From: Liolophura sinensis
Lineage: Eukaryota > Mollusca > Polyplacophora > Chitonida > Chitonidae
Reading direction: 5' to 3'
Length of the DNA: 64,000 nucleotides
Assembly (NCBI RefSeq): GCF_032854445.1
Contig: NC_088296.1
Span: forward strand, 928,001-992,000
Shown here piece by piece: positions 1,709 through 23,906 of this stretch. Within the stretch, counting starts at the first letter, position 1, and each line of letters begins with the position of its first letter. The position numbers and the translations under genes were made by a program. The notes under the pieces are model-generated. The model searched no databases, was not told the DNA's origin, and saw only the letters and a list, made by a program, of their open reading frames with translations.

Positions 1709-1737
1709 ATGCCAGCTGAAGTTCATGTCGAATACTG
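1709..1737 (+). CDS. SELENOW: SELENOW exon 1 (coding part)
   Basis: ATG in context ATCATCATGCC, nine codons, then TG, the first two bases of Cys10. The donor is TG|GTAGGT at 1738. The codon is completed by the T at 7711 (TGT). This ATG gives a protein start equal in length to vertebrate SelW, with Sec at residue 13. Confidence 0.9.
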
Positions 1738-4700
1738 GTAGGTGCTGACTACACGGTGTGTACGATTGTATCACTGAACGTTGTTGTAGTAATGGTTGTT
1801 GAGTTACTTACATATTGGTATGATCACACGTCAAGTACTTGATGATCAGTTCGCACCCTGTGGTCCAACTCATCCTTGTTTAACGTGACAGTGACTCGTG
1901 CACATTAATTATTTGGCTGTCGTAAATACAAAGTTGCAGATTCTTTCAGCAAGCAGAGTCTCCACATTACATATCATTACGTTAATTTTTGGTACAATTT
2001 TGTTCGGGCATATATGACCCCTAAACCAGCGTCAGAGCGCAATTCATTTAAAAACTTGATGCAGTTGTTGTGATAGTTTTTCACTGTAAGATATTTGGCA
2101 AGGGTAGGTTTTCAAACCGAGAGAGCTTTGACAATGGTTTGAGGCTAGAGCAATCTGGGACTAGTTGGGTTGTGTGCGACACGGTGGTTACTGGTCTAGT
2201 TAGGTGATTGGCTCTGAGATACTTTGCTCCTAGTGACTCACACCAGCGACATAGAGAAAATCCGACTATGGCAGTGCTTCCGTAGCATTTCTGCTTGATG
2301 CAGATTGCAACTGTAGTGATGCCCAGGCTAAATTGGAACGTGTGGGGATCAACTTCCAGCTTTGAACTTGGTGACATTGGCAGCAGTGGTTGGTATGTTA
2401 GTCCAGTAACCTACATTGAAGCATTTGCAGCCATGCCACTTACTTACAGTAAAATGTGAACTGAAAATGCCAGTTTTGCGTTTGTGCATAGTCATTGTGG
2501 CAGAGCAACAATTTCATATCTTGATGGGACTGGGCCCGATAGCACATTTGGTAGAGTGTTTGCTTCGGGAGCGGTAGGTCCAGGGTCAAGCCTGGGTTGA
2601 GTCACACGTACGACTTTAAAAGAGGAAGCTGTAACTTCCTCGCTTGGCGTACTTGCCTTCGGCAAGGCGTCTCAGTGAAGCAGCACTAGATAAAAGAGCA
2701 ATGGAAATCTGTCCTGCAACAAGGAGGCACATTATATGCACTCTTACTTCCTTCGTCGTCATATGACTGAAAAACTGTAAAGTACGACGTTAAACCCCAA
2801 GTGCTCGCTCACTCACTCTATCTTGATGATGCATTAATTCAAGCATGCCACAAATAGGGAAATACATGTAATAAGAAATTTAAGAAAGCTACACCAAGAT
2901 TAGGTCATGTTTTTTTTTTAGTTTGACGAGTGAAATTAGCCAATTGGAACAAGTAATGTAAATCTTCTACCTTTTCTACTAAAGTGCTTTTTTCAGTGGA
3001 ATATATGCGTACAATTATTATGAAAATGACACCAAAACTGACTTGTTTGTGTCACTAATAATGCGAGATTCATTTGCTAACATTTGCTAAATTATGGGCT
3101 GTTTAGCCATATATTTGTATAGAAATCGATTGGTAAGAGAGTTTCATTTATGTCTTGATATTAAACATACAACACCATTACACTTAGCACAACACTACAC
3201 TTTGCATAACATTACACTTCACACAACGTTACAGTTTGTATGATATTACACTTCACACAACGTTACAGTTTGCATATTACACTTCACAAAACATAACACT
3301 TCACACATTACAGTTTGTATGATATTACACTTCACACAAAATTACACTTTGCATGATATTACACTTCACACAACTTTACACTTCACACAACTTTACACTT
3401 CACACGACATTACACTTGCATGATATTACACTTTACACGATATTACGCTTCACACGACTTTACACTTTACATAATATTACACTGCTTACCAATACACTTC
3501 ACATTTACCCATTCATGAAGTACAATAGTTACAGCACAATTCATTATTTTTTTGAAGTGGCACATTTTGGTTGATTCATTCACGTTATGGGGCTACTTAA
3601 GAGGTGTTTATGTTCACGTTGATTAATGTGTTATCAGAAAACGTTAGAGTGTTGGCATAACATTTAAAAGTATAAATTTCTGTATGTATACGTGTGTATA
3701 TTTTGTATACCGTCTTTATACATACACTTTGTTTTATTTATTAATATTCGTGTGAATAGACCAGCCAGCGTCACCTGTCATGACTGTAGATTACACAAAA
3801 AGTTAGGCGTTGATACCAATCAGCTGCATAGCTTAAGAAAGTCTAATAGTTCTCACTTCAACGGTTAGAATAGTTGAGGTAGATTGTCTGTATACATACG
3901 TAAAAGTCGTAAAATTTTGTCTGGTCGTTTCCTCGAGGCTCTTCTCGGGTTTTCTCCCACCAAAATGCTGGCTGACATCACATTTAAGGCAAATATTGAG
4001 TGCAGCTTAAAACACCAATCAAATAAATAAATAGTTTGTCTTCATAAAGTGCATTTTTAGAGGTAAGTTAATGTGAAGATTATTGGGGGAAAAAACAACC
4101 ATTTTAACTTATTTACAGTACAGTAAATTGCCTAATATTTCACCCTAAAAATACATTTTTTAAGGCAAATAAACATCACATAATGCTTATAAATGGTGTT
4201 GAAACTCACATATTTCCATTTGGATATAATTCTTTGTGTAGTTGTCAAACAAACCTCAAAATGCCTTTCTAAGATCAGTAGATCTCACAGAATCCGGTTA
4301 AACGTGCAACTTAGTGATGGATGAAATTTGAGCTCAGTCACAATATATAGTATCCACACAAAATATTCCTTCAGGTCAAATAATACATCTTTGCTGCCAA
4401 AACATCACACAGCTGTGTAAAACAAAACCATGGGATTCATGCACAAGTGCAAGTAGAAGTAGAGATTTGTAGAAAAAATATTTTTGTATTGTTGGAGCAA
4501 AAATACTAAATTCAGTGGTGCTAAATTCTGTCTGTGCCAGCAGAACAATTGTCCACATATTGATCAAAGCTTTCAAAGCATGCTTTGTTCTGTGATGCAT
4601 GTCTTACATTTGTTACCTACATGTGCTGCCCCATTCATGCATTATTCGTAAAGGACTGCAGTAGAGCGAAGAATTTGAAGGTTGTAACAAAGAGAAGCCA

Positions 4701-7700
4701 AAACTTCTTTAGTCAAGAAAGTCTGACTTTACAGCAGCTTTTATTAGTGTCTCGGGCTTGTTGCATGTCATACCTGTTCACAGATACACAGGTACATGTT
4801 GGTTCTTGCATCGTGTAATTTATGAACATGAAGGACTTTACAGCAGCTTTTATTAGTGTCTCAGACTTGTTGAATGTCATACCTTGTTCACAGGTACATG
4901 TTGGTTCTTGCATCGAGACCAGAAATTAGGGCTTTCTACACCAAATTTTAGAGTCAAAATTACAGATACTAATTTTTGTACAGTAAGCACTAATGAATGT
5001 AAGGAATTTGTTCAAAGGTATGTAAAGTTAAATTTGGCAGGCAATATTTCCTGTAATTTGAGTTTTTGAGGGTATCTTGTAATTTGGGTATGCCAAAAGG
5101 GTATGAAAATACCTTTGTGTTTGGCCCTGTCATGGACTTGTATGATTGGGATGTCCTGTGTTACTCTCGTGTTATATGTGCTGTAGTCAGGAATTAGCTT
5201 AAAACCACCATAAGATTGTCATTTAACAAAACTTGGATGTGTTTGCAAAGCAAGAGTTATCTAGAAATACAGAATATTAGCTAAATTTAGGCTAAATAGT
5301 TATGAAAACTCAAAACCTTATCATCAGCCCATGGAACACGTGGGAAACATTATACAAATTGTTGAACAAGAAAAATTAGGATCACTTACCCTCGTGTTTT
5401 GTAATTGATGGGCGCAAGTCAAGAGATAAATCTGAAATAGCTAAGGGTTTCAACAAATATTTTAGCTCTTTGGCCTCAAATCTTGAGTCTACTATACCTT
5501 CAGTGGAGAAAATCTTTTCAGATCATCTTGGAAATCCTAATGACAGTAATTTCTCATTTCCATACATTTCACCAACAGACATCTTTAATGCTCTAACATC
5601 CTTGAAATCTAATGCTGCTGCTGGACTAGATGGTATCCATATGTCTAATGTGAAACTTGTTTTTGACTGTATATCGGCTCCTCTAGCCCACATTAATTAT
5701 CTGTCGTTCTCATCAGGTTCAGAAGGAACCATTCCACCCAGTACGCCGCCTGCTCATTATTTGACAAACTTATGACCGCTATGGAGAACAAGAATTATAC
5801 TGTGGCTATCTTCCTTGACTTATCAAAGGCTTGTGACACTGTGAATCATAACATTCTTCTTTCAAAACTAGATCACTATGGCTTCCGGGACCTGTCAAAG
5901 GACTGGCTGGGTAGCTACCTGTCAAACCGTACATGATGTACATCCTTCAGCAATGTATTGTCTGAATCCACAGACGTTACATGTGGTGTACCTCAACGGT
6001 CGATTCTGGGACCAATCCTTTTCTTATTATATATCAATGACATATCAAAAGTAACAGACGTCCTAAATATTATATTCTGTGCAGATGATATCAGCACAAC
6101 TTATTCCTGTGAAAATGTTGATGAGGCTCTCAAGACTTAATCTTATGAGCTATGAAAGGTGACCACTTGGTTCTGTGCAAACCGCCTTTCACTAAATGTT
6201 AACAAAACAAAGTATATGTTAATCTCGCCCGCGAGTTGACATAGACCACAAATTACTGTTCCCTTGAATGTTTCTGGGACAGAGGTTAAACGAGTCAGGG
6301 AGTTCAAATTTCTTGGTTTTATGTTTAACGAAAAGCTAAATTGGACGTCACACATAGACTGTATTCGTAAAAAGGTCTTGAGGAATCTAGGTATATTAAA
6401 CAACATTAAGGACTGGGTGAATAATAAAACACTATTTTAAACACGTATAAGTCTCACCTGCAATAACGTGCTGTTCGAATTGTGACTATGTTTAGGTCCC
6501 TAGAACACACAAAGCCACTTTTTTGTACTCATGAAATTCGGCCCATATCTGAATTGAACATTTTTTCTATTAATATGATATAGGATAAATTTTTTATCAC
6601 CCAGAAGTATAAAGACCTAGCTTTAATAATTACATTATTACAAACAATGACGTACGTCACTATGGCACAACACGTCGGCCATTAGATCTGTATCGAACTC
6701 CCTTTAAAAGTAATCTGTCCTATCGTTCACTTAAAGTAGCTGGCCCTCGGGAATGGAACAAACTCCTTTCATACTACGCAATATTCAGTTAATTTCCTTA
6801 TTCAAATCTAAATTGAAATCGTATATGCTGCAGCACTTATTCTCCGTTTAGGCTAACACCTGTATATATTATTTATTTATTTATTTACTTTTTTCACAGG
6901 AACAGATAATAACCATGTTGACAATCACTATAGTTCACATGCCTGTATTATATACAAATTGTATGTTAATGGGTTAGAGCAAGCTCCATGGAGCTATATT
7001 TCCTCCAGTATGTTTCTGTATGTTTATTTGAATTGTTTGTTTTATGTTTTGTATATTATATTGGTGAATAAACAAACAAACAATACATTCTTGATGAAGT
7101 CATTGGTTACATGAGTTTCAATGTTTTATACTCTCTTGAATTTCGGCAGTTACATGTATTTTCATGTTTCTGACTTTCTTGTTTCAATGGTTACACTTCT
7201 TTCTCTATTTCTTACCTTCTGATTTAAGTGGTGTAAGTGAGTTTCTTACTGTCTTTTCAAGGGTTACACTTGCCTCGGTGGTTTTTACTTTTCCATTATC
7301 ATGTTTCCAACTGTTTCACTGTTTCTGACTTTCTCGTTTCAGTGTTTCCAATGTTTCTGACTTTCTTATAAGGGTTACACGTGTTTCACTGTTTCTTACT
7401 TTCTCATTTAAGTGGTTTTACGGGTGTAAGTTACAATTTCTGACTGTCGTTTCAGAGGTTACACTTGCCTTAGTGTTTCTGACATTTCCATTACAGTGTT
7501 CCAGTGTTTCTGACTTCCTCATTTCAGTGTTGCCAACTGTTTCGCTGTTTCGTACTTTCTCATTTCAGTGTTTCCAACTGTTTCACTGTTTCTGACTTTC
7601 TTGTTTCAGTGGTTACACTCATTTCACAGTTTTCTTATAATAAGTTGTTAGACGTGTTTCACTGCTTCTTACTTTCTCATTCTAATGGTTTTACGTTTTT

Positions 7701-10700
7701 CTCGTTGTAGTGGTGCCTGAGGGTACGAGCCCCGGTATCGGGAACTCCGTGATGAGATATTACAGGACGTTCCCGATGCTAAGGTCACCGGGTCAGTGGG
7801 CAGAAGTTGTGAGTATCAGTACAAATAATACCTTTAGTAAAAAGGCTCATTTGGTTAGTGCGCTAGCACAGCGTAATGACCCAGGAGCCTCTCACCAATG
7901 CGGTAGCTGTGAGTTCAAGTCCAGCTCATGCTGGTTTCTTCTCTGGCCCAAAGTGGGAATGTCTTCCAGCAACCTGCGGATGGTTGTGGGTTTCCCCAGG
8001 CTCTGCTCGGTTTCCTCCCATGCACCATAATGCTGGCCCCATCGTATAAGTGAAATATTCTTGAGTACAGCGTCTAGCACCAATCAAATAAATACCTCTG
8101 GAAAACATGATAACAGAAGAGACCACCTTTTTGAATTCCCAGGTGTGCCGTCATACATGTAACACAATTCCAAATGTTCACATTTCTGAAAAAAAAAATT
8201 CTGTGCTTATAAATTTCTCTTTCAGTAACTTACCCAGAATATACATTGTCGAGCAACAATTTTCAAGTCATTTGAAATCTTGACCTATGCCTTTAAGTTC
8301 TCTTCATGATCTCAAGGACAGTACTATATTCATGTATATGTACATGTAGGCCTGTTTTTCTTGTGTACTTTGTAGCAGGAACTTGTACAACTTGCTTATC
8401 ACCAGTTTGACATTTAATTGACTACTTTATCACTAATTTGACATCTTATTGGCTGGTTTGACTACTTTATCATTAATTTGACATCTTATTAGCTGGTTTG
8501 ACTACTTTATCATTAATTTGACATCTTATTGGCTGGTTTGACTACTTTATCACTAGTTTGACATCGTATTGACTGGTTTGACTTGTTTGTCACTAGTTTG
8601 ACATTTTCTTGACTGGTTTGACTGCTTTATCACTAGTTTGACATCTTATTGACTGGTTTGACTTGTTTTTCACTAATTTGACATCTTATTGGCTGGTTTG
8701 ACTACTTTATGACTAGTTTGACATCGTATTGACTGGTTTGACTTGTTTGTCACTAGCTTGACATCTTATTGGCTGGTTTGACTGCTTTATGACTAGTTTG
8801 ACATCATCTTGACTGGTTTGACTTGTTTATCATTAGTTTGACATCTTCTTGACTGCTTTAACTGCTTTATTACTAGTTTGACATTTTCTTAACTGGTTTG
8901 ACTGCTGTATCACTAATTTGACATCTTATTGGCTGGTTTGACTACTTTATCACTAATTTGACATCTTATTGGCTGGTTTGACTACTTTATCATTAATTTG
9001 ACATCTTATTGGCTGGTTTGACTACTTTATCACTAATTTGACATCTTATTGACTGGTTTGACTACTTTATCACTAATTTGACATTTTCTTGACTGCTTTA
9101 ACTGCTTTATCACTAGTTTGACATTTTCTTGACTGGTTTGACTGCTTTGTCACTAGTTTGACATCTTGTTGACTGGTTTGACTGCTTTGTCACTAGTTTG
9201 ACATCTTGTTGACTGGTTTGACTACTTTATCACTAATTTGACATTTTCTTGACTGCTTTGACTGCTTTATCACTAGTTTGACATTTTCTTGACTGCTTTG
9301 ACTGCTTTGTCACTAGTTTGACATCTTGTTGACTGGTTTGACTGCTTTGTCACTAGTTTGACATCTTATTGACTGGTTTGACTGCTTTATCACTAATTTG
9401 ACATTTTCTTGACTGCTTTAACTGCTTTATCACTAGTTTGACATTTTCTTGACTGGTTTGACTGCTTTGTCACTAGTTTGACATCTTGTTGACTGGTTTG
9501 ACTGCTTTGTCACTAGTTTGACATCTTGTTGACTGGTTTGACTACTTTATCACTAATTTGACATTTTCTTGACTGCTTTAACTGCTTTATCACTAGTTTG
9601 ACATTTTCTTGACTGGTTTGACTGCTTTGTCACTAGTTTGACATCTTGTTGACTGGTTTGACTGCTTTGTCACTAGTTTGACATCTTGTTGACTGGTTTG
9701 ACTACTTTATCACTAATTTGACATTTTCTTGACTGGTTTGACTGCTTTATCACTAGTTTGACATTTTCTTGACTGGTTTGACTGCTTTGTCACTAGTTTG
9801 ACATCTTGTTGACTGGTTTGACTACTTTATCACTAATTTGACATTTTCTTGACTGGTTTGACTGCTTTATCACTAGTTTGACATTTTCTTGACTGGTTTG
9901 ACTGCTTTGTCACTAGTTTGACATCTTGTTGACTGGTTTGACTACTTTATCACTAGTTTGACATTTTCTTGACTGGTTTGACTGCTTTGTCACTAGTTTG
10001 ACATCTTGTTGACTGGTTTGACTGCTTTGTCACTAGTTTGACATCTTGTTGACTGGTTTGACTACTTTATCACTAATTTGACATTTTCTTGACTGGTTTG
10101 ACTGCTTTATCACTAGTTTGACATTTTCTTGACTGGTTTGACTGCTTTGTCACTAGTTTGACATCTTGTTGACTGGTTTGACTGCTTTGTCACTAGTTTG
10201 ACATCTTATTGACTGGTTTGACTGCTTTATCACTAATTTGACATTTTCTTGACTGCTTTAACTGCTTTATCACTAGTTTGACATTTTCTTGACTGGTTTG
10301 ACTGCTTTGTCACTAGTTTGACATCTTGTTGACTGGTTTGACTGCTTTGTCACTAGTTTGACATCTTATTGACTGGTTTGACTACTTTATCACTAATTTG
10401 ACATTTTCTTGACTGCTTTGTCACTAGTTTGACATTTTCTTGACTGGTTTGACTGCTTTGTCACTAGTTTGACATCTTGTTGACTGGTTTGACTGCTTTG
10501 TCACTAGTTTGACATCTTATTGGCTGGTTTGACTACTTTATCACTAATTTGACATTTTTTTGACTGCTTTAACTGCTTTATCACTAGTTTGACATTTTCT
10601 TGACTGGTTTGACTGCTTTGTCACTAGTTTGACATCTTGTTGACTGGTTTGACTGCTTTGTCACTAGTTTGACATCTTGTTGACTGGTTTGACTGCTTTG

Positions 10701-13700
10701 TCACTAGTTTGACATCTTATTGACTGGTTTGACTGCTTTATCACTAATTTGACATTTTCTTGACTGCTTTAACTGCTTTATCACTAGTTTGACATTTTCT
10801 TGACTGCTTTGACTGCTTTGTCACTAGTTTGACATCTTGTTGACTGGTTTGACTGCTTTGTCACTAGTTTGACATCTTATTGACTGGTTTGACTGCTTTA
10901 TCACTAATTTGACATTTTCTTGACTGCTTTAACTGCTTTATCACTAGTTTGACATTTTCTTGACTGGTTTGACTGCTTTGTCACTAGTTTGACATCTTGT
11001 TGACTGGTTTGACTGCTTTGTCACTAGTTTGACATCTTGTTGACTGGTTTGACTACTTTATCACTAATTTGACATTTTCTTGACTGCTTTAACTGCTTTA
11101 TCACTAGTTTGACATTTTCTTGACTGGTTTGACTGCTTTGTCACTAGTTTGACATCTTGTTGACTGGTTTGACTGCTTTGTCACTAGTTTGACATCTTGT
11201 TGACTGGTTTGACTACTTTATCACTAATTTGACATTTTCTTGACTGGTTTGACTGCTTTATCACTAGTTTGACATTTTCTTGACTGGTTTGACTGCTTTG
11301 TCACTAGTTTGACATCTTGTTGACTGGTTTGACTACTTTATCACTAATTTGACATTTTCTTGACTGGTTTGACTGCTTTATCACTAGTTTGACATTTTCT
11401 TGACTGGTTTGACTGCTTTGTCACTAGTTTGACATCTTGTTGACTGGTTTGACTACTTTATCACTAGTTTGACATTTTCTTGACTGGTTTGACTGCTTTG
11501 TCACTAGTTTGACATCTTGTTGACTGGTTTGACTGCTTTGTCACTAGTTTGACATCTTGTTGACTGGTTTGACTACTTTATCACTAATTTGACATTTTCT
11601 TGACTGGTTTGACTGCTTTATCACTAGTTTGACATTTTCTTGACTGGTTTGACTGCTTTGTCACTAGTTTGACATCTTGTTGACTGGTTTGACTGCTTTG
11701 TCACTAGTTTGACATCTTATTGACTGGTTTGACTGCTTTATCACTAATTTGACATTTTCTTGACTGCTTTAACTGCTTTATCACTAGTTTGACATTTTCT
11801 TGACTGGTTTGACTGCTTTGTCACTAGTTTGACATCTTGTTGACTGGTTTGACTGCTTTGTCACTAGTTTGACATCTTATTGACTGGTTTGACTACTTTA
11901 TCACTAATTTGACATTTTCTTGACTGCTTTGTCACTAGTTTGACATTTTCTTGACTGGTTTGACTGCTTTGTCACTAGTTTGACATCTTGTTGACTGGTT
12001 TGACTGCTTTGTCACTAGTTTGTCATCTTATTGGCTGGTTTGACTACTTTATCACTAATTTGACATTTTTTTGACTGCTTTAACTGCTTTATCACTAGTT
12101 TGACATTTTCTTGACTGGTTTGACTGCTTTGTCACTAGTTTGACATCTTGTTGACTGGTTTGACTGCTTTGTCACTAGTTTGACATCTTGTTGACTGGTT
12201 TGACTGCTTTGTCACTAGTTTGACATCTTATTGACTGGTTTGACTGCTTTATCACTAATTTGACATTTTCTTGACTGCTTTAACTGCTTTATCACTAGTT
12301 TGACATTTTCTTGACTGGTTTGACTGCTTTGTCACTAGTTTGACATCTTGTTGACTGGTTTGACTGCTTTGTCACTTGTTTGACATCTTGTTGACTGGTT
12401 TGACTGCTTTATCACTAGTTTGACATTTTCTTGACTGGTTTGACTGCTTTGACTGCTTTGTCACTAGTTTGACATCTTGTTGACTGGTTTGACTGCTTTA
12501 TCACTAGTTTGACATCTTGTTGACTGGTTTGACTGCTTTGTCACTAGTTTGACATCTTGTTGACTGGTTTGACTGCTTTATCACTAGTTTGACATTTTCT
12601 TGACTGGTTTGACTGCTTTGACTGCTTTGTCACTAGTTTGACATCTTATTGATTGGTTTGACTGCTTTATCACTAGTTTGACATTTTCTTGACTGCTTTA
12701 ACTGCTTTATCACTAGTTTGACATTTTCTTGCTGGTTTGACTGCTTTGTCACTAGTTTGACATCTTGTTGACTGGTTTGACTGCTTTGTCACTAGTTTGA
12801 CATCTTATTGACTGGTTTGACTGCTTTATCACTAGTCTGACATCTTGTTGACTGCTTTGTCACTAGTTTGACATTTTCTTGACTGCTTTAACTGCTTTGT
12901 CACTAGTTTGACATTTTCTTGACTGGTTTGACTGCTTTGTCACTAGTTTGACATCTTGTTGACTGGTTTGACTGCTTTGTCACTAGTTTGACATCTTGTT
13001 GACTGGTTTGACTGCTTTATCACTAGTTTGACATTTTCTTGACTGGTTTGACTGGTTTGACTGCTTTGTCACTAGTTTGACATCTTATTGACTGGTTTGA
13101 CTGCTTTATCACTAGTTTGACATTTTCTTGACTGCTTTAACTGCTTTATCACTAGTTTGACATTTTCTTGACTGGTTTGACTGCTTTGTCACTAGTTTGA
13201 CATCTTGTTGACTGGTTTGACTGCTTTGTCACTAGTTTGACATCTTATTGACTGGTTTGACTGCTTTATCACTAGTTTGACATCTTGTTGACTGCTTTGT
13301 CACTAGTTTGACATTTTCTTGACTGCTTTAACTGCTTTGTCACTAGTTTGACATTTTCTTGACTGGTTTGACTGCTTTGTCACTAGTTTGACATCTTGTT
13401 GACTGGTTTGACTGCTTTATCACTAATTTGACATCTTGTTGACTGGTTTGACTACTTTATCACTAGTTTGACATCTTGTTGACTGGTTTGATTTGTTTTT
13501 CACTAGTTTGACATCTTATTGGCTGGTTTGACTGCTTTGTCACTAGTTTGACATCTTCTTGACTGGTTTGCCTACTTTATCACTAGTTTGACATCTTGTT
13601 GACTGGTTTGACTGCTTTGTCACTAGTTTGACATCTTGTTGACTGGTTTGACTGCTTTGTCACTAGTTTGACATCTCCTTGACTGGTTTGACTGCTTTAT

Positions 13701-16700
13701 CACTAGTTTGACATCTTGTTGACTGGTTTGACTGCTTTGTCACTAGTTTGACATCTTGTTGACTGGTTTGATTTGTTTTTCACTAGTTTGACATCTTATT
13801 CGCTGGTTTGACTACTTTATCACTAGTTTGACATCTTCTTGACTGGTTTGACTTGTTTATCACTAGTTTGACATCTTATTCGCTGGTTTAACTACTTTAT
13901 CACTAGTTTGACATCTTATTGGCTGGTTTGACTACTTCATCACTAGTTTGACATCTTATTGGCTGGTTTGACTACTTTATCACTAGTTTGACATCTTATT
14001 GGCTGGTTTGACTACTTTATCACTAGTTTGACTTCTTATTGGCTGGTTTGACTACTTTATCATTAATTGTTTGTACTATATGTTAATGACGTATTTTTAT
14101 GTAGCCTAACCAGCACAATTGAATTATATGCTGACGATACGACCATATACCTGAATACCTTAGAAACTGCCTAAAATCAAGATCTAGAAATTATAGAACA
14201 ATGATGTTTTAGGAACAAAATGTTTATCCACACAACCAAATCAACTGCTATACTACTTACTACAGAACCAAAACTAAGAAAACTGAATAACAACATCAAT
14301 ATCCAAATTTGTAATAATACTTTAACACAGATCCCCTCAGATAAAATATTAAGATTGAATATAGATAAATTATTAGGATTAAATATAGATAAAATATTGG
14401 GATTGAATATAGATAAAATATTGAACTGGCAATCTCATATTGACTTCATATGTCGGAAAATCTCTATGAAACTTAATGTACACAGACAGGAATGTTCTTA
14501 GCAAGAATGCAAAATTCTTGTATTATAACTCCTTTATCCTACCCCATACTGACTACTGCTGTACAATTTGGGGTAATGCCAGCAATAACCAACTTGGAAG
14601 AATAACAAATCTACAGAAGCAAGCAGCAGGTATAATAACCAACTGCCATTACCTCACCCCAACTGCCTCTCTCCTTGATGAACTAAACTGGCTGTCTATT
14701 CCTGACCATATCACTCAACAAAAAGCCACTTTCATGTATAGAATAATGCACTTCCTCTCTCCACAGAAACTAATTGTGTCTCTCTTCAAACCCTTAACTG
14801 ATGTAACACCCAGACAACTATGCTCATCGGCAAATGCTAATCATTTCATTCCTAAACCCAAAACGAACTATCTCAGCCAAAGCCTTAGCTATACGGGCCC
14901 CAAAATATGGAATGTTCTTGTAGCTAATCCAAGAAATTTGCCATCTGTTCCCTCTCTCCGTTCAAATCACGTGAAAATGATGCTTAACTCCCAACTGCCA
15001 CAAAACTAAAATGTGTGTAAATCTAATTTTGATGCTGTCAATTTATCTGTTATGGTTTGTTTATATTTGATGATACATGTACCTTCAAACGTATTATGCT
15101 AAATTGATGTCTTCTCCTTTCTTGTAAAAATTGTCATCTTTGTCTGTATTCTTGTGTTATAAACTTGGGCTAAACTGTGATCCTGTCACCAGACTACTGT
15201 AAATTTATTTGTTTTCCTTTCATTTGTATCTAATTAATTGATGATTTCTTTGATATGTCACATGTAAGTCGATGTGTCTCTTTTTCTCCTGTAACTATTG
15301 TAAGATAATGTATTATATAGTGGGCCTCTGGGAAGAACAGTTCTTGAGAACTGACAGAGCTATGCCTACATTTGTATCATAATTACCCTCTGAAAATAAA
15401 GTTATACATACATACACACACACATACATACATACACACATACACACATATATTTATCACTAGTTTGACTTGTTTTTCATTGGCTTGACATGTTATTGAC
15501 TGGATTGATATTTTAATGACTGTCTTGACATTTTAATGACTGTCTTGACATTTTAATGACTGGTTCGACCTTTTATTGACATTTTTGCCTCATTGATGGC
15601 TGGTTTGACATTTTATTGACATTTTTGACTGGTTGATGGCTGGTTTGATTGGTTGATCATTGGTCACAAAGTTCTTCACCTGTTTTCATACTGTTTTCTG
15701 TTTCCAGCCTCGTTTGAGGTAACTATCAATGGCCAGCTGATCTTTTCCAAGCTGAAGACGGGCGGCTTCCCGAAATGGGATGATGTAAGTACTTTGTGTA
15801 GTTTCACCATGACAAATCACCCTGACAAATCACCATGACAAATCACCATGACAGTGGCAGCTGTTTTACTGACCATTAATGCTGAAATTACATGTATTAC
15901 TATATTGTTGTGGATTTCTTATGTATTGGGGACTGTTTGTACCAGTTACTGGGGGCTGTTTGTACCATGTGCTGGGGGCTGTTTGTAACCAGTAGTGGGG
16001 TGTTGTTTGCACCTAGTGCTGGGGGCTGTTTGTAACCAGTAGTGGGAGCTGTTTGCACCAAGTGCTGGGGGCTGTTTGACATTCTACATTTCAAGCAAAC
16101 TTTATAACAGCTTACATCTAAGTATACCTATCTGAGTGATCGGAGTGTATTTATAGCCATGTTTGAGTTATTGTATGGATGTGTGTTTGTCTTTTAACTT
16201 GTCTTTGATAACTTTAGAAGTGATTTGAGGCTTATGAACATGTCATATACATATGCACAATATTTTAGTCCGCGTTTTATTTGCCTCAGATAAACGGCCC
16301 TACCCCCCCCCCCCCCCCCCCACCGCCCCCCCCCCCATCCCCCCCCATCTCTGCCGTCTACGGTAAATGACCCTGAAGCCTGCCGTACACATGAGAAGCT
16401 TGCTGAGCTATCGACCACGAGAGGCAGGCACCTGAGGTCTTTCCCCCACGTGCGGCGAAGTTTTAGTGAGATTTTCAGCACGAAAGGCAGTGAGGAAAGT
16501 ATCCATCGTGTTTGATATTTTGTGCCTCGAGAGGTCAAATTCTCACTGTGTGCGAACACTCTGCGCGGACAGCTGAGCTGGAAGACTCAGCCGGCCAATA
16601 AAAATAGCTTATCGTAGCACGTGACTGTAAGCAGCATGGCCGCCATCAAACACGTTATGAATGAAGTCCTTTTGGATGATAACTGCGTTGAGCTGTGGCA

Positions 16701-19700
16701 GGACTGCCATAGTTTGTATGCCGTGAACACGGCAGAATTTAAAAACAGAGATCCAGTCCAGTTTGTTGCATTTCAACGGCGTCGACGGAGACATAGTAAC
16801 AGCAAAAGTAAAAGCAACCCATCTTCCTGTGTTTCATTGTCCGCCATTTTGAGCACTCACGTGGGATAGTTGAGAGTCACGTGGTATATTAGAGCGAAAA
16901 TATACTGACACGAATGCACCCTTGTGCGGTGAAGCAAGTGGAGAGTAAATTGCTGTGCTGACCACCTCTCGTGATCGATAGCTCAGCAAGTTTCCCTCGT
17001 GTGCGCCTTGCTTAAGTTGTGCCCCCGCTGTACATTTTTACCTGTGCCCCAGCTGTACATTTTACCTGTGCCCCAGCTGTACATGTGCCCCAGCTGTACA
17101 TTTTACCTGTGCCCCAGCTGTACATTTTACCTGATGATTTGTGTTCTTTTCATCTTAGAAAGGTTTTTTTCTTGTTTGGCATGTTCCATTAGAAAGCTGG
17201 TGCCGCTGTCATACTACTGAAAAATTCTTTAGCCCAGTGTAAAACACCAATCACATAAATAAAAAGATGGCGTCAGATAAGGGACAGAGGATATGCTGTT
17301 ATGTATGTGAGAGAGTGAGAGTGAGAGAGAGAGATTGCAACATTTGTAGCTTAAGATGTTACAGTGTTTGTCACACACCATGGTAACATATAGTACCTTT
17401 TGGGTTCCTCCTTCATCATTTATGCTTTCTGTAACTTGATGTCTAGCTTGATTTTGAACAATCTTGTACTTTTAACTTCATTTTCATACACATATTAATC
17501 CCTGTACTTAACCAACAACATCAATGGTAAACTATGATATTTGCGTTAAGTCTACTGGTCAGTAGTACCGCTTGATTAGATTGGGAACCCTTCATTTTGT
17601 GAGAACTCAAATGGTTCGTAGGTGTGGCCTCAGGCAGAATACGTGAAAGCTGGAGCAAAAACATTAAACATAAGAGACTATTTGAGCGGATTTTGTTTTT
17701 TAGGCCAAACATGTTGCATTGATCTTCCCCACAGCAGTTGACAACATTCAGTGTTGAATGTGTGGCCCATTCAGATGTATGTGTCACTATTTCATGTCAC
17801 GTGGATGAGATAACCCTCTGACGAAAGGTCACCTTTGGCAGCATGGTCTCGTCCTGTCACAAGAAGACACAGCACCTGTTCACAGTGACACACCTATTAG
17901 CCTCATAATCATGGGACCGAGAATTTGTTAAGCCTGATGTAAAAACCCAAGCATACATACATACATACATACATACATGCCCTGCCCCTTCTCCCCTCTG
18001 TCCCCCAACCCCACACACCTCCCACATACTAATGTGCTCACCTGGAATTCACAAATCTCACTGTTGATGACGTAACACATTTCCCTTTCCTTGATGTTCC
18101 AGGTGATAGCCGCGGTGAAGAAAGCTTAAGAAATGACGATATCTACATGTAGGTAAACCACAGCATTTATCCCACAGCTACATGACATAATACATCTTTT
18201 ATAAAATTTATTTGGATTAAGTGTTTTTCGTGCCATATTCAAGGATACATAACTTTATCATGTTTGTGCTGGTGACGAGGTTTGTGAGTAGAGGAATTTC
18301 TGGAAGAAAAGCTGTTAAACTTCAAGAAGATTTTCCCCAGAGTCTTCTTAATGTCACCCACCTATAGACCTCCTGTCACCCTCCTGTAGACCTCATGTTA
18401 CCCACCTGTAGACCTCATGTCACCCACCTGTAGACCTCCTGTCACCCTCCTGTAGACCTCATGTTACCCACCTGTAGACCTCATGTCACCCACCTGTAGA
18501 CCTCCTGTCTGCCCTAGACTTTTACAGTAACTGAAACATTCTTGGGCATGGTGTAAAACTTAAAATTGTACATAAAAAACATCTGCTTTTACAGTAAAGG
18601 AGGAGAAAATCAAGTGCCCTACTTCTAATTTTTGGGACACTTGGTCTGCTCTTTTTAGCCAGAGTACATGTAATTGTACAAGGGATATTTAGTTTCTTTC
18701 TTGTCACGTGGTTAAACCATCTAATGAACAACATACTAATGTCTTTACTTTTCCGAAAAACTGGGGAAAAGTGTAATATTCTGCTCTTAGTGCTAGTAAT
18801 ATCTGTCCCAAAAATTAGAAGAATTTGTTGAGGGTTATGGATGCAAAATTCTATCTGAAAACATGCGATTGTGCTCATTTTAAGGTTTGTACCAGGAAAA
18901 GTGCAGTGTTCAGATTGTATGAAGGTGGGCTTTATTGTGTTTATGGAAGGGAAGGTCTGCCAGCAACCTGCGGATGGTAGTGGGTTTCCCCCCGGGCTCT
19001 GCCCGGTTTCCTGCCACCATAATGCTGGCCACCGTCATATAAGTGAAACATTCTTGAGTACGGCGTAAAATGCCAATCAAATAAATAAATAAAGCTGACT
19101 GCATATTTACCACCCCAGAGTACATTTGGTGAAACCTATTCGTGTAGAATTGTATGTAACTAAACTTATAAAACTGTTAATTAAATGATGTGATATTGTA
19201 CACAGTTTACAGTGAAAATAAAATCTTGGTAGAATGCAAAATGAAAGATATGGTCCATGAAACTCACATTCCAGCCTCACAAGTTTGCTGCACATTTCCT
19301 GATAAAAGTAATATCTTCCAAAATTAGTTAACTTACTGTAGGGAAAGTTTTCTGTGGCATTTCATATAACACTTTATAATACTATAATACTTATTTCTTT
19401 TCTCCTCCTCTTGAGTGACTCTCCAGCTGCACATGAAGTGAACTTACTTGTACTAACACCTCCAGCAGTGCTAATACCTCGAGCGGTGTAGCACCTCCAG
19501 CAGTGCAAGCACCTCCAGCTGTACTAGCCCATCCAGCTGTACTAGCCCATCCAGCTGTACTAGCCCCTCCAGCTGTACTAGCCCCTCCAGCTGTACTAAC
19601 ACATGGTTCTATTATTATGGAATAATATAATCTGAACTGTTGTGATGACATTACAGATTTTGCTTTGCCATATTTCTGTGCAGTATTTTGGACGATACGT

Positions 19701-22159
19701 TTCACATCTTTGGTTGTGGTAGTATGAAAACTCCTCCATTATATCATGTAAGTCACCCGTCCCGGTAGCCTCTCTGTAGTATGAAAACTCCTCCATTATA
19801 TCATGTAAGTCACCTGTCCCGGTAGCCTCTCTGTAGTATGAAAACTCCTCCATTATATCATGTAAGTCACCTGTCCCGGTAGCCTTTCTGTAGTATGAAA
19901 ACTCCTCCATTATAACATGTAAGTCACCTGTCCCGGTAGCCTCTCTGTAGTATGAAAACTCTTCCACTATAACATGTAAGTCACCTGTCCCGGTAGCCTC
20001 TCTGTAGTATGAAAACTCTTCCACTATAACATGTAAGTCACCTGTCCCGGTAGCCTTTCTGTAGTATCCATGTCCAGGGTAGTTTTTGTTGCAAAGCCTT
20101 CCTGTTCCTGTAGTGGCCGGGATTTACGTGGATTTTATTAATACAGCAGTAGCGGAATTCTCAGACAGGGATTTACGTGGATTTTATTAATACAGCAGTA
20201 GCGGAATTCTCAGACAGGGATTTACCTGGATTTTATTAATACAGCAGTAGCGGAATTCTCAGACAGGGATTTACCTGGATTTTATTAATACAGCAGTAGC
20301 GGAATTCTCAGACAGGGATTTACCTGGATTTTATTAATACAGCAGTAGCGGAATTCTCAGACAGGGATTTACCTGGATTTTATTAATACAGCAGTAGCGG
20401 AATTCTCAGACAGGGATTTACCTGGATTTTATTAATACAGCAGTAGCGGAATTCTCAGACAGGGATTTACCTGGATTTTATTAATACAGCAGTAGCGGAA
20501 TTCTCAGACAGGAAAACTTCATTTTTACTGATTTTTGCATCAAAAGCAATAAGCCTTGATCCTCTTTATATTCTAGAATCTCAGCTTGCTGTAATTCTTC
20601 TACCTTTTCACATGTTTGCAGGGTGTTTATTCAGACATATTTAGAAGGTATTATTGTATGTTGGCAGATAAAATAACACTTTTTGTGAAGCCCTGAAACT
20701 GGCCAATCCAACCAATGTAGTTTTGTCTCTTATAATGCGAATAAATTGCCCAGAAAGTTGCTCTTTCATACACAGTATGCGAGAAGGTTGAGGGAATTAA
20801 GGTATTAAAGCTTAACTCTACACATCCATTGACTACATATCTTCATGAGTATTTTACAAGGAGAATTCTTGCCTTTGTACATGTAGGCATGTAATATGTT
20901 ATAAAAAGCATTTGGTAATCAGTCTGGTTGATATTTCTGATTTTCCTCCCCACGAGCGTGCATCACGCTCAGCTGGTGACCAGCACTAGATGTCTTTGTC
21001 ACTGCTTGTCAGAAGATTTCGTTGTTTTGAAGTGTGTGTGATTTGTGTTGACGGTGACGTGTTGTGTTGACGGTGGCATTTTGTGTTATCCAAATAAAAC
21101 TTAGGATTATTCTATGCACCTTGTATCTATGGCAACTAAAACGTACAGCTCTTTAAACTTTCCTTTGTGCCTCTTTGGGGAGAGACAGAAATCAATGAAA
21201 AGAACTTTTGCTCTAACTTTTGGCTTACCTGTGCAGCCTAAGCCATCACCACTCTCACCACTGACTCTCACCAGAAACAATGGACTCTTCTTCTTATTGT
21301 TGTTGTTGAGGTGTCTTAACGCTGGATGTCTAATATAATGTAATTGTGCAAACTTGTATGTGTTACACTATACAAAATAGTCAGGGGATATTCTACATAC
21401 AAGTAACTGAGCACAGCTGTACGTGTAGGTATTCAAATCTATCATTAAATCGCCAGTTTATCAGTAACATTTAGACTTGTGCTGAAGGAAATGATCAATA
21501 GAAATGATAAGGTTTAGTTGTGAGTTATGCTGTGAAATGGATGGAAACTGATAAGGTTTAATGTAAATTTGAAATGAACCTCAACCATATTTCACCAGTA
21601 AGCAACAGGTCCTACAGTATGTGTAATTGTAAACATAAACCAATGACGACTTCTAAATATTTATTTTATTATTTAATGTAATATGTTAAATTTTTAATTT
21701 ATTTTATTCAAGTTTAATCGTTGTTTTAATTAATGCCCTACTGGAAAAGTTTTCATTTCTACAAAAGTGGTCAGTATTTTGGGTGGAAAACCAACCCGCA
21801 TTTGACCAATGAGGATGCATGTTTAAACTCATCTCTCATTGATTATAGTCCTTTCAGTCCCCTTACAGTATTTTTTGTTGAATATCACAAGGTTCATGAG
21901 GATGATGGTGGGTTTATCTACCTACAAACTCTTCCCTCCCCTCCCCTCCCTGCCCTGCCCCATCCCGTCCGGTTCCGTCCCGTTCCGTCCATCCTTTCCC
22001 GATGGGAAAGGGAGATAACCTTGGTTTCAGCAGAAAACGTTATGTCAAACTATGGGTGGTGTCTGTTTCCAGGTGACAAGAGCAGTCCAAACTGTCCATA
22101 AGGGGGGAAAGGCAGAGGAGATCACGGACGCCCAGAGCCCAGGCTGTCGCATTTTGTAG
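1709..22159 (+). CDS. SELENOW: Selenoprotein W, split gene with alternative C-terminal exons
   Basis: SelW is a small cytosolic thioredoxin-fold protein of the Rdx family that uses a C-x-x-U redox centre and is linked to glutathione. Joining 1709-1737, 7711-7808 and 15708-15784 gives 68 codons. The first nine residues are M-P-A-E-V-H-V-E-Y, then C10-G-A-U13, where codon 13 is TGA (7718-7720). Sec at 13 within CGAU matches vertebrate SelW. Residues 45-64 carry the family block FEVTINGQLIFSKLKTGGFP. Intron phases are 2, 1 and 0, and donors are GTAGGT, GTGAGT and GTAAGT. After D68 two in-frame exons are available: 18103-18152 (short form, 76 aa) and 22073-22159 (long form, 96 aa, ending C-R-I-L). 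The SECIS at 22215-22292 supports Sec readthrough. Without readthrough the product would be a 12-residue peptide. The gene spans about 20 kb, mostly repeat-filled introns. Identification is firm; isoform usage is inferred. Confidence 0.93.
2527..2815 (+). mobile_element. tRNA-derived SINE family B, near full length
   Basis: The tRNA-like head begins GGGCCCGATAGCACATTTGG, followed by a degraded box B near GGTCAAGCCTGGG. The body includes TCTCAGTGAAGCAGCACTAG and CGTCGTCATATGACTG. The 3' end reads AAGTACGACGTTAAACCCC, then a CTCACTCACTC tail. Related copies lie at 32368, 34813 and 60122. It lies in SELENOW intron 1 in sense. Confidence 0.85.
3166..3510. repeat. Minisatellite, 15-17 bp unit
   Basis: About 20 imperfect copies of a TTACACTTCACACAAC-like unit, with variants carrying TTGCATGATA or ACGATA. 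Open frames crossing it are low-complexity artefacts. Confidence 0.9.
3929..4032 (+). mobile_element. SINE family A, 3' fragment
   Basis: Diverged 3' half: TTTTCTCCCACCAAAATGCTGG, then AAAACACCAATCAAATAAAT. The tRNA head is missing. Sequence from here to 4724 shows no gene or repeat. Confidence 0.75.
4725..4915. repeat. Two-copy direct duplication
   Basis: A segment of 80-90 bases beginning GACTTTACAGCAGCTTTTAT and ending GTTGGTTCTTGCATCG occurs at 4725-4813 and again at 4834-4915. The first copy has a few extra bases (ATACACAG). Confidence 0.85.
5330..7083 (+). mobile_element. Non-LTR retrotransposon (CR1/Jockey-like) reverse transcriptase relic
   Basis: Broken reading frames carry reverse-transcriptase blocks in order: the N-terminal KSNAAAGLDGI block (about 5605-5635), motif A as VAIFLDLSKACDTVNH (5800-5850), VPQRSILGPILFLLYIND (5985-6040), a degraded FADD box as CADD (6080-6090), and the C-terminal FKFLGF/LNWTSHI block (6305-6355). 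Key positions are mutated (F to C in motif A, G to R in VPQG) and several stops and frameshifts are present, so it is dead. The 3' end has GAATAAACAAACAAACAA. Clade assignment is from motif style only. Confidence 0.88.
7084..7705. repeat. Degenerate pyrimidine-rich tandem repeat before SELENOW exon 2
   Basis: Repeated variants of TTTCTGACTTTCTCATTTCAG, GTGTTTCCAACTGTTTCACT and GGTTACACTTG with an irregular period. The array runs up to the exon 2 acceptor and supplies many TTTCAG sites upstream of the used TTGTAG. Confidence 0.7.
7711..7808 (+). CDS. SELENOW: SELENOW exon 2, carries the Sec TGA
   Basis: Codes residues 10 (last base) to 43 (first base). The Sec codon TGA is at 7718-7720, within Cys-Gly-Ala-Sec. 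The helix that follows includes GYEPRYRELRDEILQDVPDA. The acceptor is CTCGTTGTAG|T and the donor GTT|GTGAGT at 7809. In the other frames the exon looks like anonymous sequence, so a gene finder that treats TGA as stop will miss it. Confidence 0.92.
7843..8096 (+). mobile_element. SINE family A, near full length
   Basis: Begins about 35 bases after exon 2. The head contains GGTTAGTGCGCTAGCACAGC and GAGTTCAAGTCCAGC. The body includes CAACCTGCGGATGGTTGTGG and the 3' end CACCAATCAAATAAAT. It has the same orientation as the host gene. Confidence 0.9.
8392..14065. repeat. Large satellite, 40-bp unit, about 140 copies
   Basis: The unit is four decamers: GACTGGTTTG, ACTGCTTTGT, CACTAGTTTG, ACATCTTGTT. 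Variants (ACTACTTTAT, CACTAATTTG, ACATTTTCTT, GACTGCTTTA) recur in fixed order, giving higher-order blocks of several units. Some units lack 10-20 bases (for example near 10411 and 11922), and the same irregular units recur at a distance, which shows block duplication. The array lies within SELENOW intron 2. Confidence 0.97.
14066..15450 (+). mobile_element. LINE 3' fragment inserted into the satellite
   Basis: Starts inside a reverse-transcriptase block readable as LFVLYVNDV, followed by LYADDTTIYL (FADD box) and, after frameshifts, NWQSHIDFICRKIS. The C-terminal part, open from 14476 to 15009, carries LPHTDYCCTIWGNASNNQL. A small internal triplication (LNIDK.LG) lies at 14359-14425. The 3' end is AAAATAAAGTTATACATACA with a CATACA microsatellite. 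Satellite units flank both sides, so it is a 5'-truncated insertion into the array. Confidence 0.9.
15451..15663. repeat. Satellite remnant beyond the LINE
   Basis: Degenerate units such as TTTATCACTAGTTTGACTTG and TTTTAATGACTGTCTTGACA continue the 40-bp satellite after the LINE and end about 45 bases before SELENOW exon 3. TTTATCATTA (14056) and TTTATCACTA (15453) could be the target duplication, but the satellite itself repeats this string. Confidence 0.8.
15708..15784 (+). CDS. SELENOW: SELENOW exon 3, conserved Rdx core
   Basis: Codes the end of residue 43 to D68: S-S-F-E-V-T-I-N-G-Q-L-I-F-S-K-L-K-T-G-G then FPKWDD. The INGQLIFSKL-GGFP block is diagnostic for SelW2/MIEN1-like proteins. 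The acceptor is TTTCCAG|C. The donor GAT|GTAAGT at 15785 falls on a codon boundary, so either downstream exon can follow in frame. Confidence 0.93.
15790..16080. repeat. Two small minisatellites in SELENOW intron 3
   Basis: ACCATGACAAATC-like units lie at 15806-15855. About six GC-rich units of about 22 bases (TGCTGGGGGCTGTTTGTACC with variants) lie at 15935-16075. Confidence 0.85.
16303..16350. repeat. Poly-C / C-rich tract
   Basis: Runs of C broken by single A, G or T bases. The minus strand has several G runs close together, so quadruplex formation is possible. Confidence 0.9.
16387..17003. mobile_element. Foldback element with inverted arms and four CACGTG boxes
   Basis: The arm at 16395-16429 (GAAGCTTGCTGAGCTATCGA onward) recurs inverted at about 16962-17000 with only a few differences. 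The interior is GC-richer than its surroundings, with CACGTG at 16447, 16618, 16858 and 16878 and a CCGCCATTTT (YY1-like) motif at 16841. A 77-codon frame from an ATG at 16636 ends at 16869; its product is not recognised and is basic at the end. It lies in SELENOW intron 3. It may be a MITE/foldback transposon or a promoter-like insertion. Confidence 0.6.
17018..17131. repeat. Minisatellite, about 24-bp unit
   Basis: About five copies of TGTGCCCCAGCTGTACATTT (ACC), one copy shortened. Confidence 0.9.
17212..17336 (+). mobile_element. SINE family A tail fragment, then a GA-rich tract
   Basis: TGTAAAACACCAATCACATA with AAATAAA is the 3' end of family A (17212-17266). A GAGAGTGAGAGTGAGAGAGA tract follows at 17306-17336. 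Confidence 0.7.
17850..17990 (+). mobile_element. Family B-like SINE 3' fragment
   Basis: CACAAGAAGACACAGCACCT, then GAATTTGTTAAGCCTGATGT and a CATACATACATAC tail. A parallel fragment lies at 27432-27548. Confidence 0.6.
18103..18152 (+). CDS. SELENOW: SELENOW alternative exon 4 (short, SelW1-like end)
   Basis: After GATGTTCCAG the frame from exon 3 reads V-I-A-A-V-K-K-A then TAA (18127-18129). This matches the final helix of the family, and the protein stops at 76 aa as in short SelW proteins. A donor-like TAG|GTAAAC at 18153 would make it a 50-bp cassette exon joined to 22073. The stop would then lie 23 bases before the last junction, too close to trigger ordinary nonsense-mediated decay. 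No convincing SECIS was found by eye in the few hundred bases after it, which favours the cassette model over a terminal exon. Confidence 0.7.
18343..18508. repeat. Minisatellite, about 20-bp unit
   Basis: Copies of CACCTGTAGACCTCCTGTCA and CACCTGTAGACCTCATGTTA alternate, giving a higher order of about 63 bases. Confidence 0.9.
18944..19092 (+). mobile_element. SINE family A, head-truncated
   Basis: Starts within the body at GAAGGTCTGCCAGCAACCTG and runs to ATGCCAATCAAATAAATAAA. The tRNA head is absent. Confidence 0.9.
19465..19605. repeat. Minisatellite, 18-bp unit
   Basis: Seven or eight copies of a CCAGCTGTACTAGCCCCT-like unit; the first copies are more diverged (CCAGCAGTGCTAATACCT). Confidence 0.9.
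19720..20061. repeat. Minisatellite, 57 bp x 6
   Basis: Units start at 19720, 19777, 19834, 19891, 19948 and 20005, each beginning TAGTATGAAAACTC and containing CTGTCCCGGTAGCCT. As 57 is a multiple of 3 and the unit lacks a stop in one minus frame, a repetitive open frame exists there, but nothing suggests a gene. Confidence 0.95.
20119..20510. repeat. Minisatellite, 49 bp x 8, nearly identical
   Basis: Eight units with exact 49-base spacing (20119, 20168 ... 20462), each starting GGGATTTAC and containing ATACAGCAGTAGCGGAATTC. The only clear difference is ACGTGG in the first two and ACCTGG in the rest, so expansion is recent. Confidence 0.97.
20511..22072 (+). other. Distal part of SELENOW intron 4
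   Basis: No exon or known repeat recognised except a TTGTGTTGACGGTG duplication near 21050 and a CCTCCCCTCCC pyrimidine-rich stretch at 21936-22000 shortly before the acceptor. An open frame at 21733-22101 overlaps the exon in another frame and is judged spurious. Confidence 0.5.
22073..22159 (+). CDS. SELENOW: SELENOW terminal exon 5 (CaaX, SelW2/MIEN1-like end)
   Basis: After CTGTTTCCAG the frame from exon 3 continues V-T-R-A-V-Q-T-V-H-K-G-G-K-A-E-E-I-T-D-A and ends P-G-C-R-I-L then TAG (22157-22159). The E-x-I-T-x-S/A...C-x-I-L pattern matches the C terminus of SelW2 and MIEN1, where a final C-V-I-L is geranylgeranylated. C93-R-I-L96 here is a plausible CaaX box, so the long form may be membrane attached. 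The exon begins with GTG, like exon 4, and codes the same helix, which suggests an old exon duplication. A SECIS starts 56 bases after the stop. Confidence 0.88.
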   Translation: MTRAVQTVHKGGKAEEITDAQSPGCRIL

Positions 22160-22214
22160 ATAGGGAAGGTCAGGAGAGGACTGTGTTAACTGTTCGCACG
22201 TACAGCGGTTATGA

Positions 22215-22292
22215 GTGACGTCTTTATAATGACAGCAGGCTGGGAAATCTCAGAACTCGGTCAGCTTGATGAATCCTAAGGACCCTCGTCAC
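22215..22292 (+). promoter_or_regulatory. SECIS element of SELENOW
   Basis: Helix I pairs GTGACG (22215-22220) with CGTCAC (22287-22292) and TCTTTA (22221-22226) with TAAGGA (22277-22282). The quartet is ATGA (22229-22232) opposite GA (22268-22269). Helix II is about 12 pairs from CAGCAGGCTGGG, with G-U wobbles and a few mismatches. The apical loop opens with AAA at 22245-22247, 12 bases after ATGA, as expected. It directs Sec insertion at the TGA in exon 2 via SBP2/eEFSec. Folding was done by eye. Confidence 0.9.
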
Positions 22293-22299
22293 CCCTGTT

Positions 22300-22907
22300 C
22301 GTCCAGAGTTTGCACGGCCCCTTATCCTGCATAATGTTAAACATGACACTAAAGACTATTTATTCAGTTTGTTGTATGAAATATTTTTATTACAATTCTC
22401 ATTTTGAACGATGCTCGGTGTCTTGCTTAAATGTCATATTGTGTGTGAAGTGTTTACAGTTTGGTAAAGTTAATGACAAATTTTCCGAAATCTAATTTGA
22501 AAGTTTTAATTCAGCAGAACTTCATCTGGTCAAATATTTTCAACATATTCTACTGTCCACAAAGAATGTTTTTAGTATTTACGGTGAGGAATACAAAATT
22601 TCCCTGACTCTAAATGACGTAAGATCTGTTTTAAAATTTGGACTGGTTGTGATTTTGACTCGCTCTTTTAGGGTGATGTCCACTGTCTCAGTCCATCAAC
22701 ATCCACCATTGTCCAAATTTGTTTTCTCGTGTTAGTTTCTCAGGGAAACACTGTATCGTTAAAATATGCAAATTACATTGTCATTATGTGGGAACTGAAA
22801 TTTACATGTCTTGTCGTCAATTGTTTATTACTATATTTATTACACTGTTACCAGTGTGGATATGTTTGGAAGGAAAAACTGAAGGTGGGTGTTCAAAGAG
22901 GAAGATG
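22300..22907 (+). other. Probable SELENOW 3' UTR and flank
   Basis: AT-rich with no gene. No canonical AATAAA was seen near the SECIS. The nearest AATAAA strings in sense come from the SINE tail at 23110-23128. Confidence 0.4.
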
Positions 22908-23128
22908 GGCCTTCGTGGTCGACGGGGTTAGAACACCAGCAGGGCACAATGGCCTCCCATCAGTTCAGTCGCTGTGAGTTCGTCCAGCTCAGGCTGACGT
23001 CCTCTCCGATAGTCATGGGTTTCCCCTGCGCTCTGCCCGGTTTCCTCCTACCATAATGCAGGCCGCCGTTCTGTAAGTAAAATATTCTTGAGTACCGCTG
23101 AAAACACCAATCAAATAAATAAATAAAA
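22908..23128 (+). mobile_element. SINE family A, nearly complete
   Basis: Head CTTCGTGGTCGACGGGGTTA is diverged. The body has TTTCCTCCTACCATAATGCA and the tail CAATCAAATAAATAAATAAA. The tail may offer poly(A) signals to SELENOW transcripts. Confidence 0.88.
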
Positions 23129-23775
23129 GAGGGAAGTGAGCAGCACGTGGCTTGATGGGTATAGATGTATGCTTCTGTTTTCACAGACATGCTGTTGCAT
23201 TTGGGTTATTTCATACAATAACTTGACGCATTCGTTTCACTGTTTCCACATCCCATGGATTGACAACTTCGATTCTACCACACGATCAATCTATCCTAGC
23301 AATAAATCCTCGTCCGATGGGTTAAAATGGCATATGTTTCATGCTGTCTGTCCACTGCGTTGCCATGTATTAAATAATGGAGTCCATGGGAACACCCCAG
23401 CGTGTTCAGCTAATTTTCATCCTTGGAAGAATTAATGGCTATCGCATATCTTCGGAAACAAAGCATATGACGGCATTTGTTTAAACCCTCGCCCCGTAAA
23501 CAGACAACCTCGCACCAGGTTTTAATTGGGTCATATTCAAGATTTTACAAAAATCTGTCTTGAGAGCGAACTGTGTGGGAGTGATCAGGCGCTATGAGGT
23601 GTACACGAAGTTTCAGACCCGGACACTGATCGTGGCTCGTTTGGCCGTCTTTGCACAGTCTAACGCTCGTTGAAGATAGTTGTTGTCAAACATGGGGTGA
23701 TTATTAAGTACATATCAGGTGTAAAAGTTTGTGAACGAGGTCAGGGTTCTAGCCTCAGTAGACTGATTCCATCCA
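23129..23775. other. Intergenic, no gene recognised
   Basis: No exon-like frame or repeat was identified. Confidence 0.45.
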
Positions 23776-23778
23776 CAG

Positions 23779-23906
23779 GTGAGCGTCATCTCCAGCTGGG
23801 CGTCATCTCCAGCCGAGCGCCATCTCCAGCCGAGCGCCATCTCAACGATCTTGTGAATTCCAAAAGGCGTTCTCCAGCCGAGCGTCTTCTCCAGCTGAGC
23901 ATCATC
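23779..23906. repeat. Minisatellite, about 17-18-bp unit
   Basis: GCGTCATCTCCAGCCGA-like units, interrupted once by a 30-base spacer. Confidence 0.85.

Follow-up and report, generated by a model that had tools for sequence, protein, structure and literature searches.

The stretch of Liolophura sinensis DNA analysed here (64,000 nt, referred to as the window and corresponding to C2:928001-992000 of the 609-Mb, 632-contig assembly used for genome searches) carries at 1709-22159 a four-exon selenoprotein gene of the SelW2/MIEN1 type, gene A, plus an extra small exon, 4a (Table 1). Spliced translation yields 96 aa through exon 4b and 76 aa through exon 4a, with Sec as codon 13. The 96-residue form (Sec written as U) has the N-terminus MPAEVHVEYCGAUGYEPRY, which includes the CxxU redox motif C-G-A-U, and the C-terminus SPGCRIL. 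Its last four residues, CRIL, form a CaaX box that the 4a form lacks.

The initial annotation had described a single locus that offers two C-terminal exons in frame, with a CaaX box encoded by one of them and not by the other, and the sequence agrees with this description. As had been proposed, the last codon of exon 3 is complete, and the exon can be read in frame into either 4a or 4b across the 6.3-kb intron 3. Both of these exons start with GTG, again as described, and in both the GTG stands behind a CAG acceptor. Exon 4a reads GTG ATA GCC GCG GTG AAG AAA GCT TAA, followed by 23 nt more that end in TAG/GTAAAC.

Table 1. Coordinates of gene A, its candidate extra exon and associated elements, and the exons of paralogue B (window positions unless prefixed C2)
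Feature	Position	Strand	Description
Exon 1, coding part	1709..1737	+	MPAEVHVEY and TG of Cys-10; gene B counterpart is the 29-nt exon C2:1011225-1011253
Exon 2	7711..7808	+	In-frame TGA 7718-7720 = Sec codon (C-G-A-U); gene B exon 2 also 98 nt with in-frame TGA
Exon 3	15708..15784	+	Ends ...GGFPKWDD, codon boundary (phase 0); gene B exon 3 also 77 nt
AG-free zone before 4a	17952..18100	+	TACTAAT 18027-18033, polypyrimidine stretches; (CATA)n run at the upstream end
Candidate cassette exon 4a	18103..18152	+	VIAAVKKA-stop, TAA 18127-18129; donor 18153, alternative donor 18149
Exon 4b	22073..22159	+	VTRAVQTVHKGGKAEEITDAQSPGCRIL-stop, CaaX box CRIL; gene B exon 4 also 87 nt, end CTIL; gene C end CILL
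SECIS candidate, 3' UTR of exon 4b	22221..22282	+	SECIS_1 21.8 bits, full length, E 2.8
Gene B exons	C2:1011225-1011253, 1015628-1015725, 1016376-1016452, 1019435-1019521	same as gene A	

Family and paralogues of gene A

The 4b form matches Pfam Rdx (PF10262) with 74.4 bits (cut-off 22.6) and TIGR02174 with 71.0 bits (cut-off 34.2). The best PDB match of the gene A protein is MIEN1 (2ljk, 70.8 bits), and because this score lies well above that of SelW (2npb, 38.1 bits), the body of the protein is, on these sequence matches, of the SelW2/MIEN1 type and closer to MIEN1 than to SelW. The short end had been called SelW1-like, and this is not supported, as VIAAVKKA fits SelW1 and MIEN1 equally well (BLOSUM62 sum 19 against each) and the body to which it is attached is not of the SelW1 type by the same PDB scores. 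SelW1 (SELENOW) belongs to the same superfamily and has the helix LVTAIKAA near its end (2npb), yet its body is much more distant from gene A. SelW1 is not known to have a CaaX box.

SelW2 and MIEN1 (Rdx12, C17orf37) share with gene A the Rdx domain, the CxxU/C motif, an NGQLIFSKL-type core and a CaaX box with a terminal Leu; MIEN1 differs in having Cys where gene A has Sec. In the available text of Mariotti et al. (PMC3316567), SelW2 is distinguished from SelW1, the two being separate genes in vertebrates, and Rdx12 (MIEN1) is given as the Cys form of SelW2 in tetrapods. The same text reports tandem SelW2 copies in zebrafish, a situation similar to that in this chiton. When the SelW stretch (2npb) was used as a query for a SelW1 gene, 0 candidates were obtained, and genes known to be present were missed too, so that this negative carries no weight. 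A collection of bacterial Rdx loci (at least 80, nearly all from Pseudomonas) was too narrow and was left out.

Gene B lies 61 kb downstream of gene A on the same strand (C2:1011225-1019521). Its exons have exactly the lengths found in gene A (29, 98, 77 and 87 nt), the Sec codon is again a TGA in frame, and the gene has a CTIL end followed by a SECIS-like element. Gene C is located at C1:30534380-30537711 and has a TGA at the matching place of exon 2, just before C1:30534390; exon 3 was found, exon 4 ends in CILL (read by eye), and no exon 1 was found for this gene. Both paralogues carry a CaaX box at the C terminus and a SECIS-like element downstream of it, so that 4b would be the more ancient end and 4a something that gene A has gained. 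No counterpart of 4a was found in intron 3 of either paralogue, the best other site scoring 5.25 in gene B and 0.0 in gene C. Duplication of 4b as the origin of 4a was rejected for want of support at the DNA level: beyond the acceptor the two exons are identical at 12 of 24 bases, with a local score that was reached by 56 of 500 shuffles.

Open stretches at 44225-47625 of the window (+ strand), the first with ankyrin repeats and the second without a Pfam match, probably represent a separate gene between the SelW2 genes A and B. An Rdx-like exon at C12:2213388-2213462 (20.5 bits) was also noted, which we take to be part of SelT. Weak Pfam matches on C9 were read as noise.

The SECIS candidate behind exon 4b

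The SECIS candidate of gene A starts 62 nt past the stop of 4b. Behind the CaaX exon, the SECIS_1 model gave 21.8 bits for gene A (E 2.8 in 14.3 kb), 23.1 bits for gene B (E 0.14) and 30.4 bits for gene C (E 0.001), all of them below its gathering score of 35; at that threshold no match was reported in the window. The predicted fold of the gene A candidate is not more stable than that of shuffled sequences (z -0.09). Taken alone, the element is probable rather than proven, and it is backed by its position and by the equivalents in genes B and C. A genome-wide Rfam SECIS search, run without a positive control, scored 150 of 13032 candidates, of which 0 passed.

Within 15700-30000 the candidate behind 4b is the only SECIS match at E<=10, and a separate search of 18103-20500 returned no match at that level. 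Since the sole candidate lies behind 4b, 4a would have to be a cassette for the short form to hold Sec. Unless a SECIS was missed elsewhere, a short selenoprotein would thus be possible only if 4a is joined to 4b.

Splice signals and helix match of exon 4a

Acceptors and donors were scored with a matrix of vertebrate-type frequencies, not of chiton ones. With this vertebrate-type matrix the 4a acceptor scores 7.50 and ranks first among the 365 AG sites of intron 3 (next 6.4), while the remaining eight acceptors in the three genes range from -0.32 to 5.72. Across 114 kb, both strands included, 34 of 13159 AG sites reach 7.50, with 4a among them. The boundaries proposed for exon 4a were sustained at the acceptor and in the reading frame but not fully at the donor, which is not unique: under the same vertebrate-type matrix GT 18149 scores 6.53 against 5.92 for GT 18153, so that 4a has two rival donors, neither of them strong. 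The value of 5.92 equals that of the gene C exon 3 donor and is slightly above that of the exon 2 donor (5.84), placing the 4a donor at the low end of the range of the six gene donors scored (5.84-9.97). GT sites scoring at least 5.92 number 15 of 446 in the intron, counting the 4a donor and exon 3's own. The splice sites of 4a are therefore at least ordinary in strength on this matrix, the acceptor being the strongest of the intron and the donor falling within the range of the genes.

The AG-free zone before 4a measures 151 nt from AG to AG and is the longest of the 368 AG intervals in intron 3. Intervals of at least 150 nt number 12 of 13192 in the 114 kb (both strands), the 4a zone included. 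The putative branch A of the TACTAAT motif is situated 71 nt upstream of 4a, and a weaker TTGAT is found at 36 nt. According to the available text of Gooding et al. (PMC1431707), human exons with an AG-free zone of at least 100 nt show more alternative splicing. Exon 4a resembles the human distant-branch-point exons of that report in its long AG-free zone before the acceptor, which is there tied to alternative splicing; however, the human branch points were mapped at 100-400 nt, whereas the putative branch point of 4a at TACTAAT is nearer. The same source points out that repeats can create spuriously long AG-free zones (PMC1431707), and a (CATA)n run is part of the 4a zone. An origin of 4a as a repeat-derived pseudo-exon was rejected because the segment 18040-18240 matches only itself in the genome, in a search that passes over simple repeats and words of very high frequency.

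The match to the last helix of the family was assessed by scoring octapeptides in a fixed register against MIEN1, SelW and genes B and C. VIAAVKKA scores 14.75, ranking first among the 365 AG sites of intron 3, and the next site scores 6.5. With the two real gene A exon starts left out, this value is reached by 2 of 13160 AG sites in the 114 kb, both strands: the start of gene B's genuine exon 4, and an IIQSIKKA behind a purine-rich stretch. In the same 114 kb (both strands) it is reached by 0 of the 1204 YAG sites whose upstream sequence is at least 59% pyrimidine. Dinucleotide shuffles of intron 3 never attained 14.75 (0 of 1000), and 63 of the 1000 held some AG site scoring 10 or more. The true exon 4b itself fits the helix references poorly, at 5 to 8 each, and a good match is therefore no requirement for a real last exon.

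If acceptor strength and helix match are independent, the chance that the best of each would fall on one site is about 1/365. The true chance level is somewhat larger than such in-intron figures, because 4a was picked by a reader seeking oddities. Even so, with acceptor, helix match and AG-free zone each first in the intron, these sequence features make it unlikely that 4a arose by chance.

Profile scores were of less use. Against Pfam Rdx the short form scores 75.6 bits (model positions 1-73 of 74), compared with 74.4 for the long form and 72.0 for the body by itself. Intron 3 has 52 other YAG sites with a pyrimidine fraction of at least 0.59; 27 of them supplied decoy tails, once 17 with tails shorter than 8 aa and 8 with near-duplicate tails from repeat arrays had been dropped. 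The Pfam E-values were 3.6e-21 for 4a, 4.1e-21 for the best of the 27 decoys and 8.6e-21 for the true 4b; the corresponding TIGR02174 values (2.4e-20 for 4a, 4.4e-20 for the best decoy and 7.7e-20 for 4b) likewise do not separate 4a from decoys. Because decoys score almost as high, these scores were dropped as proof of 4a, and the two profiles say no more than that the Rdx domain can be filled by the short form.

A possible CaaX switch and its alternatives

From the letters of the locus, we judge the case evenly balanced that 4a is a real, gene A-specific cassette exon giving a tail-less form beside the default CaaX form. More tentatively, we propose that this cassette, probably with a distant branch point, would switch a CxxU protein between a prenylated membrane state and a soluble one, with a single SECIS serving both. 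The default transcript 1-2-3-4b would encode the Rdx-domain CxxU protein of 96 residues; its CRIL end is predicted to be geranylgeranylated and membrane-bound. If 4a is spliced in vivo, possibly from a distant branch point, the transcript 1-2-3-4a-4b would meet a stop after VIAAVKKA and encode a 76-residue protein that would still fill the Rdx model and keep the Sec site but have no CaaX box, and should thus stay soluble in the cytosol. The 4a stop would lie 23 nt before the last junction, which is too near for ordinary decay, and nonsense-mediated decay would not be expected. The transcript would also retain the SECIS candidate of 4b, so that Sec insertion would still be possible if this element is functional.

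Two analogies suggest a membrane location for the 4b form and a cytosolic one for the 4a form. In MIEN1 the CVIL end is reported to be geranylgeranylated and to keep the protein at the membrane, and the biological activity reported for MIEN1 depends on prenylation (PMC6738349, available text). In OAS1 the p46 and p42 isoforms likewise differ in a CaaX box (CTIL), the gain or loss of which moves the protein between membrane and cytosol; however, OAS1 is an unrelated protein and its isoform is set by a SNP, not by a cassette exon (PMC6950736, available text). An isoform switch involving a CaaX box is already known in other proteins. Among the literature matches listed, none describes an alternative C terminus of SelW2, SELENOW or MIEN1 comparable to the candidate CaaX-less end of gene A, which does not imply absence from print; the available part of PMC12822975 contains nothing on an alternative C terminus. 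The SelW2 gene of Schistosoma japonicum resembles gene A as an invertebrate SelW2 gene with splice variants, isoforms A and B, but its variants differ in the first exon, a difference that could, as the authors say in the accessible text, be an error (PMC3828610), whereas the candidate variation of gene A is at the C terminus. If the proposed switch is true, one Sec redox domain made both in a lipid-anchored and in an unanchored version would allow location to be told apart from redox chemistry in a natural system, and the gene would show how a last-exon SECIS constrains the alternative ends open to a selenoprotein gene.

Exon 4a could instead be a chance pseudo-exon of a long intron, combining a good acceptor with a short helix-like open stretch, in which case only the prenylated form is made. 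We lean against this explanation while regarding it as a real possibility. It is consistent with the missing counterpart in intron 3 of both paralogues, with the almost equal Pfam and TIGR02174 scores of a random intron tail, with the helix scores of 10 or more that arise in a small share of shuffled introns, and with the other intron GTs that match the 4a donor or better. It is opposed by the fact that a single site ranks first for its acceptor, for its AG-free zone and for its helix match, and by the failure of every shuffle to attain the observed helix score.

It is improbable, in our view, that 4a is spliced in mainly as a regulatory or low-level event that reduces the output of the prenylated form instead of yielding a soluble protein with a function. 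The short tail of 8 residues, which leaves out the rest of the family C terminus, would suit such a role. Selenoprotein mRNAs with a UGA before a junction can be decay-prone when selenium is low, and the UGA in exon 2 stands 88 nt before its junction, so that transcripts of gene A could be prone to decay under that condition. However, the 4a stop itself is too close to the last junction for ordinary decay, and the short form covers the Rdx model as far as position 73 of 74. Still more improbable, to the point of being hardly credible, is that 4a forms a terminal exon in its own right, polyadenylated at a separate site. Eight AATAAA/ATTAAA motifs do occur in 18130-22072, the first at 19080, 19088, 19180 and 19217, but those at 19080 and 19088 sit in what appears by eye to be a SINE-like tail. 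Moreover, the UGA would stay undecoded in such a transcript given the lack of a SECIS match at E<=10 in 18103-20500, and a terminal-exon 4a was for that reason rejected as a selenoprotein.

Intron 2 of gene A consists mostly of a 40-bp minisatellite of about 141 copies (8418-14062 of the window), and the stretches of this intron at 5400-6850 and 14060-14990 look by eye like decayed remnants of reverse-transcriptase-type retroelements. Intron 3 contains two tandem arrays, one of 57-bp units at 19719-20067 (97% match) and one of 49-bp units at 20119-20512 (99%).
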